Shown here in pieces: positions 28,343 to 31,884 of a DNA stretch of 35,356 nt. The stretch lies in the IMG/VR virus record IMGVR_UViG_3300023104_000004, positions 1 to 35,356 of that record. One strand, given 5' to 3'. Under the pieces are notes generated by a model. That model made no database searches. It worked only from the letters and a program-made list of their open reading frames with translations, and was not told where the DNA came from. The translations under genes and the position numbers were made by a program. Position 1 is the stretch's first letter, and every line of letters begins with the position of its first letter. This DNA is from a virus.

Positions 28343-28552
28343 TTACCGACCATACTTCGGGCCACGCAGATCAGGATCGTTCGGCACACAATAACGACCA
28401 TATGCGTGCGTGTTCGGCATGCACTTGATCGCTACGGATGATGCCTTCACTGTTGTGCGCGGGGACTGGGCGAACGACTTCGCCTGAGCGGCAGACATTG
28501 GGGCGGCCACCATGAGCAGCGTGATCGCTGCGGTGGTCAGTAGCTTCTTCAT
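28343..28552 (-). CDS. Small secreted protein
   Basis: A 69-residue protein on the minus strand with AAGGAG before the ATG at 28552. A Sec signal (MKKLLTTAAITLLMVAAPMS) ends AAQA-K, giving a 44-residue basic mature peptide with two Cys (KCMPNTHAYGRYCVPNDPDL), likely a disulfide after export. It sits beside attP on the prophage-expressed strand. Export suggests surface protection or a host-modifying role, but no family is known. Confidence 0.7.
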   Translation of the reverse strand: MKKLLTTAAITLLMVAAPMSAAQAKSFAQSPRTTVKASSVAIKCMPNTHAYGRYCVPNDPDLRGPKYGR

Positions 28553-28609: not shown

Positions 28610-28638
28610 TTAATAGAGTCTTGCCCAACAAAGGCTAA
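28610..28638 (-). promoter_or_regulatory. Candidate promoter overlapping an attP arm repeat
   Basis: On the minus strand TTAGCC (28633-28638) and TATTAA (28610-28615) are 17 bases apart, upstream of the secreted-protein gene. The -35 box would lie within the first arm repeat, so integrase binding might affect transcription. Speculative. Confidence 0.3.
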
Positions 28639-28841
28639 CTGAAAGGCTGACGTGACCAACCTGTTAGATGGCCACTCCCCAGTGTTTTATTGAGCCGCCT
28701 GTCAGAATCGAACTGACGACCTTCTCATTACGAGTGAGAAGTTTTACACCCTAGATGCCTCAAACCCCAGTGTTTTACTGGGATGAGGGTTACTTGTATG
28801 CACCCGTACGCACCGGCAATGGCTTACGTAATGGCTAACGT
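28633..28841. other. attP: attP region with tRNA-Thr half-core and arm-type repeats
   Basis: The core (28691-28742; minus sense) is the 3' half of a tRNA-Thr(CGT): anticodon stem TCTCA/TGAGA with loop CTCGTAA, T-arm GTCAG-TTCGATT-CTGAC and acceptor AGGCGGCT. No D-arm or 5' acceptor is present, as expected for an attachment site. Outer repeats GGCTAACTG (28633) and GGCTGACGT (28645) on one side, and GGCTTACGT (28821) and GGCTAACGT (28833) on the other, each start 12 bases apart. CCCCAGTGTTTTA flanks the core at 28677-28689 and 28765-28777. It lies just upstream of the integrase. Confidence 0.85.
28677..28780. repeat. Inner direct repeats flanking the attP core
   Basis: CCCCAGTGTTTTA at 28677-28689 and at 28765-28777 (88 bases apart) are identical, with weaker similarity continuing upstream (TAGATGGCC versus TAGATGCCT). 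They probably represent binding sites for integrase, excisionase or a host factor. Confidence 0.7.
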
Positions 28842-28861: not shown

Positions 28862-28891
28862 AGGGCCACGGACTCCTACATCCGTGGCCCT
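28862..28891. terminator. 11-bp hairpin between attP and integrase
   Basis: AGGGCCACGGA (28862-28872) pairs with TCCGTGGCCCT (28881-28891). On the minus strand it is followed by TTCTTTTG, so it fits a minus-strand or bidirectional terminator that would isolate attP from transcription. Confidence 0.7.
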
Positions 28892-28928: not shown

Positions 28929-29012
28929 ATGAATTTTAGCGACATCTTTCATAGAAGACCACTGCACATCGGCGTCATCAACGGCGCGGTGTGGAGCGCG
29001 CACGACAGATGA
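28929..29012 (+). CDS. Possible 27-aa leader peptide of the integrase gene
   Basis: ATG 28929 with AAGGA about 9 bases before; ends TGA 29010-29012, overlapping the integrase ATG at 29009 (ATGA). The short frame could couple integrase translation to a leader. Low coding content makes it uncertain. Confidence 0.4.
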   Translation: MNFSDIFHRRPLHIGVINGAVWSAHDR

Positions 29013-30319
29013 CCGATGGGGACAACGGCGTCCCCTCAACTTCTCCCTCAACGAAAGTAGAGCGCACAATGATGACTCCGAACAAACGCCCCAAGGGTGC
29101 AGGTTCCGTCTACCAACGCAAAGCCGATGGTCTGTGGTGCGCCTCTCTCGAGATACCTACTGAGGATGGAACGCGCAAGCGTAAAGTCCTGGTTCGCAAG
29201 TCCGAAGCGGCTGCGAAGAAGGCTTTGCGCGAGCTGATCCTGACGATTGAGAAAACGGGCAAAGTGCCCGAGAAAACCCAGCCACTGAACGAGTGGCTTG
29301 ACTACTGGTTCAACCGCATCGCCGTCAAAGAACTCGCACCCAAAACCGCGAACAACTATCGCGGGATGATTCGCAATCACATATCCCCCGCGATCGGTGG
29401 CGTGCGACTCGACAAGATCACCAACGACCACATCCGTCGCGTACATGACCGGATGCTCGAGAGCGGCAAATCCTCTACGACCACTCTCTACGCCCACAAC
29501 GTTCTATCTGCCGCGCTCGACGCAGCGAAGAACGAGGGCATCATTGCGACCAACCCCGCAACACGCGTCAAGCGCCCACGCAAGGAGCATGTATCGATCC
29601 CGGTACTGACTGCCGAGGACGGTAAGAAAATCCTTGCAACGGTCGCACATGACCGCTTGGGGTCACTTTGGGCTATCGCTCTCTACACCGGAATGCGTGA
29701 GGGCGAACTGATAGGTCTAACTATCGATCGCGTCACTGACATCATCGACCTTTCATGGCAGTTGCAGCGCTTCACATGGGAACACGGCTGCGACCCCAAG
29801 TGTGGCGAAAAGCTTGGGGCAAACTGCCCGAAGAAGAAGGTCACGCTGCCTGCCGACTCCGAGTCGTACCAACTCCACGGTGGCTTGTGGATGTCGCGTC
29901 CGAAGTCTCGCGCTGGCGAGCGACGGATTGAGCTCGCAGGCATTCCGCGTCAAATTCTCGAACATCGAATCGCTATTGCTAAGACGGAGCCCAACCCGTA
30001 CAACCTAGTCTGGACGGCAGAGTTCAAAGATAAGCATGGGCGTGACCTGCCCCTCGACGGTTCGCCCATTGACCCTGCTCGAGCAAGCAAGATGTGGCAT
30101 GAAGTGTTGGTGCGCGCTGGCATCGGAAAAACCCGCTTGCACGCAACACGCCACACTGCCGCCTCACTTCTCATGGCGCGCAACACGTCGGAGACAATCA
30201 TTCAGAAGATCCTCGGCCATAACTCTTTTGTGGCGTCACAGATCTACATTGACGTCGATCGCAGCCAGAAGCGTGCGGCCATGGAATCGATCTCGGATCA
30301 ACTTCAAATCGAAAGCTGA
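29009..30319 (+). CDS. int: Tyrosine integrase
   Basis: A 436-residue protein if started at ATG 29009 (overlaps the leader stop); ATG 29069 is an alternative, because the conserved part begins RPKGAGSVYQR. An N-terminal arm-binding domain and core-binding helices (KELAPKTANNYRGMIRNHIS) precede the catalytic domain with Arg in TGMREGEL, the HxxR box in LHATRHTAASLL, LGHNS and the nucleophilic Tyr in QIYIDVD. A small insertion holds three Cys (HGCDPKCGEKLGANC), not usual for this family. It inserts the phage into the host tRNA-Thr(CGT) gene via the adjacent attP. Confidence 0.93.
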   Translation: MTDGDNGVPSTSPSTKVERTMMTPNKRPKGAGSVYQRKADGLWCASLEIPTEDGTRKRKVLVRKSEAAAKKALRELILTIEKTGKVPEKTQPLNEWLDYWFNRIAVKELAPKTANNYRGMIRNHISPAIGGVRLDKITNDHIRRVHDRMLESGKSSTTTLYAHNVLSAALDAAKNEGIIATNPATRVKRPRKEHVSIPVLTAEDGKKILATVAHDRLGSLWAIALYTGMREGELIGLTIDRVTDIIDLSWQLQRFTWEHGCDPKCGEKLGANCPKKKVTLPADSESYQLHGGLWMSRPKSRAGERRIELAGIPRQILEHRIAIAKTEPNPYNLVWTAEFKDKHGRDLPLDGSPIDPARASKMWHEVLVRAGIGKTRLHATRHTAASLLMARNTSETIIQKILGHNSFVASQIYIDVDRSQKRAAMESISDQLQIES

Positions 30320-31205: not shown

Positions 31206-31399
31206 ACGGCGCGCAAATCTCATACTCCCCGGACGACGCTTGGCGCGTTATCGGGTTGAAGTCGAGACGACTGCTTGACCAAGCAGTACAGCGCGGCGAC
31301 ATCACGCCTAAGTACTTCTCCACCAAGACTCCGGTGTTTCTTCACGCTGATCTTGTTGCCCTGGTCGAGCACCTGCCTGTTGATCGGGCAAGCGCATGA
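31202..31399 (+). CDS. Small HTH protein, excisionase-like
   Basis: A 65-residue protein beginning at ATG 31202. The start ISYSPDDAWRVIGLKSRRLL and a basic middle resemble the excisionase-like protein at 30453 (YSP at the same place, similar length), suggesting a pair of diverged MerR/Xis-type regulators. It overlaps the HNH gene by 4 bases. Confidence 0.6.
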   Translation: MNGAQISYSPDDAWRVIGLKSRRLLDQAVQRGDITPKYFSTKTPVFLHADLVALVEHLPVDRASA

Positions 31400-31884
31400 C
31401 CGCCGAACGCTGGATGCCGGTCGTTGACTTCGAAGGCGTCTATGAAATTTCAGACATCGGACGCGTGCGCCGGGTCAAGCCCGGAATGGGCGCAGTGGTG
31501 GGTCGTATTCTCCGCATCAGTCTCGACTCGGATGGGTACGAGAATGTGCACCTCAGTTCACCGGGCTTTAGGCGGACAGTGACCGTCCATCGGCTTGTTG
31601 CGCTGGCCTTCCTTGGAGTGCCCGACTCACCGATGGAAGCATGCCACGTCGATGGACGCCGCACGAACAATGTCCTGAGCAATCTCCGCTGGGGCACCCA
31701 TGCCGACAACGTTCGAGACACTCTTATTCACGGTACGCACAACCAGGCAAGCAAGACGCATTGTGCGGCCGGTCACGCGTTCGATGAAGCGAACACCCGC
31801 ATTCATGCGGCTGGCCGCTCATGTCGAGCGTGTTCTCGAGTCGCCTCCGCACGATACAAGGCAGAGAAGCGGACGGCCGCATGA
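31396..31884 (+). CDS. NUMOD4 plus HNH endonuclease
   Basis: A 162-residue protein. N-terminal NUMOD4-like motif (ERWMPVVDFEGVYEISDIGR), then HRLVALAFLG, CHVDGRRTNNVLSNLRWGTH and ADNVRDT, an HNH of the homing-endonuclease type. A second Cys cluster (CAAGHAFDEANTR then CRACSRVASARY) is a likely zinc site. Such free-standing endonucleases are mobile or serve phage mobility. It lies in the lytic-direction operon and overlaps both neighbours by 4 bases. Confidence 0.85.
   Translation: MTAERWMPVVDFEGVYEISDIGRVRRVKPGMGAVVGRILRISLDSDGYENVHLSSPGFRRTVTVHRLVALAFLGVPDSPMEACHVDGRRTNNVLSNLRWGTHADNVRDTLIHGTHNQASKTHCAAGHAFDEANTRIHAAGRSCRACSRVASARYKAEKRTAA

Follow-up and report, generated by a model that had tools for sequence, protein, structure and literature searches.

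A putative tRNA-Thr(CGT)-derived attP and a conserved leader ORF ahead of the integrase gene in a temperate actinophage

What might part of a tRNA gene, framed by short tandem repeats, be doing just upstream of a phage integrase gene, and how might that integrase be controlled? We analyzed such an arrangement in a 35,356-base stretch of DNA that is a whole IMG/VR virus record (hereafter the window). The source is a temperate phage of high-GC soil bacteria (actinophage), with actinophage-like structural genes that include a terminase 41% identical to that of Arthrobacter phage BaileyBlu, as well as tape measure and capsid families. Judging from sequence comparisons, the region spanning 28630-28841 is very probably the attP of this phage, which would be used by a lambda-type tyrosine integrase encoded just downstream. 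Since actinophages typically have a tRNA core with paired arms on either side, this kind of attP is already known, and what is new here is a refined arm motif and a defined target. An ORF located between attP and int, which we call the leader, is the more unusual result. The main features of the integration module are as follows.

28630-28641 (AAAGGCTAACTG) and 28642-28653 (AAAGGCTGACGT), plus strand: tandem arm-type sites, int-distal (repeat search, relatives' matrix)
28692-28739, minus strand: common core of 48 bp, corresponding to the 3' portion of tRNA-Thr(CGT), from anticodon stem through acceptor (identity to host genes)
28723-28739, minus strand: anticodon stem-loop TCTCA-CTCGTAA-TGAGA, with its 7-nt loop at 28728-28734
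28818-28829 (AATGGCTTACGT) and 28830-28841 (AATGGCTAACGT), plus strand: tandem arm-type sites, int-proximal (repeat search, relatives' matrix)
29009-30319, plus strand: tyrosine integrase gene, start ATG at 29009 or 29069 (PF00589, PF14659, PF22022)

The integrase matches PF00589 with an E value of 7e-13, resembles lambda Int and Xer structures at the sequence level, and has catalytic residues (R210, H358, R361, and Y393) that are invariant across six relatives. For a putative N-terminal arm-binding domain, Pfam returned sub-threshold matches to AP2 (E=0.04) and Arm-DNA-bind_4 (E=0.17), and phrog_16880 aligned with residues 28-86 in the 442-aa version of the protein. Querying viral contigs with the single sequence produced no close relative, and an alignment-based query of viral contigs produced 80 relatives. 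Downstream of int, at 31396-31884, there is a gene with NUMOD4 and HNH_3 domains that resembles a homing endonuclease gene.

The core, which reads TCTCACTCGTAATGAGAAGGTCGTCAGTTCGATTCTGACAGGCGGCTC on the minus strand, is shared without mismatch by tRNA-Thr(CGT) genes of many Actinobacteria, Microbacteriaceae for the most part. When a 41-base piece was searched, 96 stretches of bacterial genome contigs matched, mainly from Cryobacterium, Salinibacterium, Clavibacter, Glaciihabitans, and Microbacterium, and also from Nocardioides and relatives. Most of these copies are intact tRNA-Thr genes matching over the full 48 bp, and ARAGORN called a Thr/CGT tRNA in all six loci tested (L057, L118, L061, L032, L031, and L081). 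The initial annotation, which had recognized a 52-base 3' half of tRNA-Thr(CGT), was therefore correct about the identity of the tRNA but not about its length, since a typical host gene shares 48 bases. Because so many genera share this core unchanged, it points to no single genus as the host, and a member of the Microbacteriaceae is most likely. In the window itself, ARAGORN found no complete tRNA; in Rfam, the core was matched by the tRNA family below threshold only, and other sub-threshold hits in the window are taken as chance. No second viral contig matched the exact 50-nt core.

We next considered the arms. The paired 12-bp repeats first noticed on both sides of the core were borne out: GGCTNAC pairs with a 12-bp spacing occur twice in the 35-kb window, both times at the attP arms, whereas Markov shuffles yielded 0.01 pairs per window and a double occurrence in 0/200. 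The repeats had been placed from 28633, which is the GGCT of a first arm that begins three bases earlier, at 28630, and had been described as exactly 12 bases apart, which holds as a start-to-start distance but not as a gap since the 12-mers abut. As for the motif, the proposed GGCTNACGT gave way to AATGGCT(A/T)-a/c-c, which is the form conserved in relatives; the ACGT tail of the arms was seen only in the window and in L017, a locus with a 36% identical integrase. The 22 loci found when viral contigs were scanned for GGCTNACGTNNNGGCTNACGT correspond to approximately the estimated chance expectation, and only L017 among them adjoins a relative of this integrase. A small minus-strand ORF at 28343-28552, with no family match in PHROGs or Pfam, adjoins the distal arm.

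To score the arms, we used a matrix of 22 arm sites from relatives, with the window left out. The tandem pair at 28818/28830 was the top pair in the window by far with 29.9 bits, compared to a mean of 13.2 (sd 2.2, maximum 19.2) for the best tandem pair in 60 Markov shuffles, in a test with some circularity since the relatives' arms were partly picked by likeness to the window motif. The pair at 28630/28642 was the second-best independent pair with 13.7 bits, which alone is within the shuffle range. These left-arm copies (AAAGGCT) match the relatives' motif less closely and alone are no better than the best chance pair, and the support for the left pair is its position and symmetry. AATGGCT pairs are found at the place matching the window's distal arm in L147, L118, L057, and L136, and a motif-blind spacing scan also recovered tandem pairs in L123, L124, L125, L142, L147, and L136. 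Arm-type repeats thus flank the core on both sides and are conserved together with the integrase.

If the region is an attP, related prophages should lie at tRNA-Thr(CGT) genes with matching attL and attR, a comparison that the initial annotation had proposed and that was positive in two Cryobacterium prophages. Some genomic core copies lack the tRNA 5' half, a truncation that the second junction of an integrated element should show, and three truncated copies adjoin integrases 42-47% identical to that of the window. In Cryobacterium sp. Y57, an intact tRNA-Thr next to a phage arm (L057) and a truncated core next to a 44% identical integrase (L085) lie on one contig with ~37 kb between them. 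The corresponding loci of C. melibiosiphilum, L118 and L037, are ~58 kb apart and the integrase is 42.5% identical. Both prophages display tandem AATGGCT-type pairs on each phage flank. Moreover, a metagenomic phage with a 43% identical integrase (L147) has a complete attP consisting of TATGGCTACCATAATGGCTACC, the same core, and AATGGCTACCCAATGGCTACC. Another contig, JACMOZ010000206.1 (L071/L123), from a MAG named Aeromicrobium, encodes an integrase with 47% identity, and its core is bordered on either side by sequence resembling an attP, with a clear arm pair toward int. Since 294 genomes of the order of this MAG contained no other relative at the cutoff, this contig may be misbinned, and it may represent a free phage that was assigned to the MAG.

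Core identity, arm conservation, and the attL/attR of related prophages together support the tyrosine-integrase attP architecture originally read from the window. Phages can carry tRNA remnants and the window has no complete tRNA, which would suit a tRNA fragment, decayed or captured, whose nearby repeats arose by chance and which is no working att site. However, we give this a negligible probability because the core has zero mismatches to host genes over 48 bp and sits directly upstream of int, and the matching attL/attR already contradict it. A second alternative, in which the site is still an attP but the GGCT pairs are bound by an excisionase (RDF) or a host factor rather than by the integrase, draws on RDF sites also being direct repeats about one helical turn apart, as described for phage 186 Apl (PMC7498355). 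We regard it as very unlikely since the pairs are symmetric about the core, like actinophage arm sites (PMC3203893, PMC3706429), and since the integrase keeps its arm motif even with a different tRNA in the core, as in L136, where the same arms surround a tRNA-Lys half (tRNA identity read by eye). Further away, in L017, two GGCTAACGT pairs lie next to a complete tRNA-Met, and arm pairs of other relatives differ, e.g., GTTGCTAT in L158 and GGCTACACC in L140. Since more distant members of the clade are at other tRNA genes, the clade as a whole has no fixed tRNA target.

Returning to the attP reading, where might strand exchange occur? In L083, L037, and L097, the identity between truncated and intact tRNA begins within 0-2 nt of the anticodon loop CTCGTAA, so exchange would take place there or further 3', and the 7-nt loop at 28728-28734 is likely to be the overlap region. 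We propose that the N-terminal domain of Int would bind the four AATGGCT-type arm sites, while its central and catalytic domains would bind the core. Recombination between this core and the 3' portion of tRNA-Thr(CGT) in the host would follow, with the crossover probably in the anticodon loop. Upon integration, the phage-borne 3' half would complete the host tRNA at one junction, and the other junction would retain a truncated core copy beside int. Following the lambda scheme known for this family (PMC10865867, PMC3203893, PMC3706429), Int would connect the arm sites to the core within a folded complex. Truncated tRNA-Thr(CGT) copies were also seen without a close integrase relative (L029, L058, L060, L075, L083, L102, L108, L109, and L110), which suggests that several elements, unrelated to one another, use this tRNA gene as a hotspot.

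In known actinophage attP (Giles, L5, Omega, CrimD, and the Fionnbharth group), a host tRNA or tmRNA core lies beside int and is flanked by paired 10-11 bp arm-type repeats (PMC3203893, PMC3706429, PMC10865867). The window shares the tRNA core next to int and the paired arm repeats but differs by its arms, AATGGCT(A/T) instead of TGCATACg/t in cluster J, and by its tRNA-Thr(CGT) core. It is also unlike the tRNA-dependent lysogeny of the Fionnbharth type, where a ~10 bp core fails to rebuild the tRNA and the phage encodes a tRNA, since here 48 bp of core suffice to rebuild the tRNA and no tRNA gene is present in the window. A similar tRNA-Thr-derived 3' half is present in Microbacterium phage vB_MoxS-R1 (92.6% identity, with the core at both record ends) and in Arthrobacter phage Hestia (89.1% identity), but their integrases are only 25% and 32% identical to that of the window, respectively, and their arms are different (TGTGCAcc- and GTACACC-like, read by eye).

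Microbacteriaceae are, in our judgement, probably poorly served by integration vectors. The attP and integrase would represent a defined integration module for tRNA-Thr(CGT), the 48-bp target sequence being identical across many members of this family, with an arm specificity (AATGGCT) that is retained while the core target switches from tRNA-Thr to tRNA-Lys.

Additional repeats and a hairpin lie within and beside the attP.

28677-28692, plus strand: inner repeat copy 1 (CCCCAGTGTTTTATTG), directly next to the 3' end of the tRNA (repeat search)
28765-28780, plus strand: inner repeat copy 2 (CCCCAGTGTTTTACTG), in a CCCAGT-GTTTT-ACTGGG inverted repeat (repeat search)
28862-28891, minus strand: strong terminator-like hairpin with a 12-bp stem and a T-rich tail, facing attP (hairpin search)

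The inner pair that had been spotted, CCCCAGTGTTTTA at 28677-28689 and 28765-28777, is real and extends to 15/16 matching positions. Copy 1 has a counterpart in L118, a phage-side AAT.AA.CACTGGG-like stretch (TCAATGAATCACTGGGATG), and copy 2 has no equivalent among relatives. The pair may be bound by a host factor or an excisionase, or may serve the restored tRNA as a terminator. The hairpin, which is located between the leader and attP, may shield attP from antisense transcription; similar hairpins occupy the same place in L123, L124, and L125.

How might Int production be controlled? Since the int-side arms are upstream of the leader, Int may also repress its own promoter. In KplE1, where intS is autoregulated, the int promoter region overlaps the att region with its arm sites (PMC2951348). 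Here, a sigma-70 promoter search gave no match, and the leader ORF is outside the KplE1 model. The leader and an adjacent hairpin are as follows.

28929-29012, plus strand: leader ORF, MNFSDIFHRRPLHIGVINGAVWSAHDR followed by a stop, 27 codons, with AGA-AGA at 28953-28958 and a final AGA (homologues, codon statistics)
29018-29035, plus strand: hairpin GGGGAC-AACGGC-GTCCCC, just 3' of the leader stop (stability vs chance)

A plausible ribosome-binding site (AAGGAACGAACACC) precedes the leader, whose stop shares bases with an in-frame ATG that may be the int start (ATGA, 29009-29012) and whose peptide has the pattern xRR...GVL...W.AH.RR. Most of the closest relatives have a homologue of 27-52 codons ahead of int. 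At the DNA level, a pattern covering the C-terminal half was matched in six viral contigs and in 2/400 genomes of one family, each time (8/8) just upstream of a relative of this integrase. More distant integrases (below ~38%) are mostly without a leader, and among the loci searched it was seen only ahead of this integrase clade. The leader peptide found no match by tblastn in the phage collection, and a literature search found no matching report of an int leader with AGA codons.

The codon usage of the leader is peculiar. AGA represents 50/78 Arg codons in 11 leader homologues, compared to 3/609 in the adjacent int genes and 2/190 in the structural genes of the window, although these are not independent events because the loci are related. 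At the four Arg positions, AGA is used in 43/43 Arg cases in an ungapped alignment of 11 sequences, a count that is partly built in because the alignment was anchored on AGAAGA, and the contrast with int genes is the fairer measure of the bias. In most homologues a hairpin follows the second Arg pair, with a stability only modestly beyond chance (mean z -1.0), which is no more than suggestive.

These patterns leave us evenly divided on a model in which a conserved cis-acting leader ORF controls a clade of actinophage integrases, AGA-AGA and the hairpin stalling ribosomes at scarce tRNA-Arg(UCU). The leader would present tandem AGA-AGA, usually twice and 18 codons apart, and then a hairpin; scarcity of tRNA-Arg(UCU) would stall ribosomes in the leader, and translation of int would be slowed or coupled. 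This would tie Int output, and hence the decision to integrate or excise, to the host translational state. Alternatively, the AGAAGA might be DNA- or RNA-binding motifs, or the ORF might code for a small protein, e.g., an RDF, that acts in trans. In most loci, 54 nt separate the two AGA-AGA, a distance close to five helical turns, and the peptide is conserved beyond its Arg residues, with G, W, and H invariant in 11/11. We nevertheless find this alternative rather unlikely, since the other spacings (51, 63, or 90 nt) are, like 54, multiples of three and in frame; Arg stays AGA while other conserved residues vary synonymously (GGC/GGA, GTA/GTC/GTG); L144 has AGG/AGA in place of AGA-AGA; and the product is only 27-52 aa and always just upstream of int. 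A frameshift fusion between leader and int was rejected, the int frame being +1 to the leader in L123 and L125 and -1 in the window, L127, and L128; L124 also rules it out because the int frame is closed in between (frames read by hand).

The cis-acting leader model has a parallel in lambda, where int synthesis is limited by 5' rare Arg codons (Zahn and Landy 1996, cited in PMC6456624). The window shares rare AGA codons with lambda int, with a limiting role that is putative here, but it has these codons in a conserved leader ORF separate from int, which itself has almost none. If the model is true, a separate cis leader would meter integrase via rare-arginine codons, unlike lambda's codons inside int.

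A second leader family, MH(G/A)TNRRSA...ANGNA..., also with AGA-AGA, was observed in L140, L156, L190, and L166, up to ~240 nt upstream of int, and L140 contains minigene-like ORFs, e.g., ATG AAC CGG AGA AGA AGA TGA.
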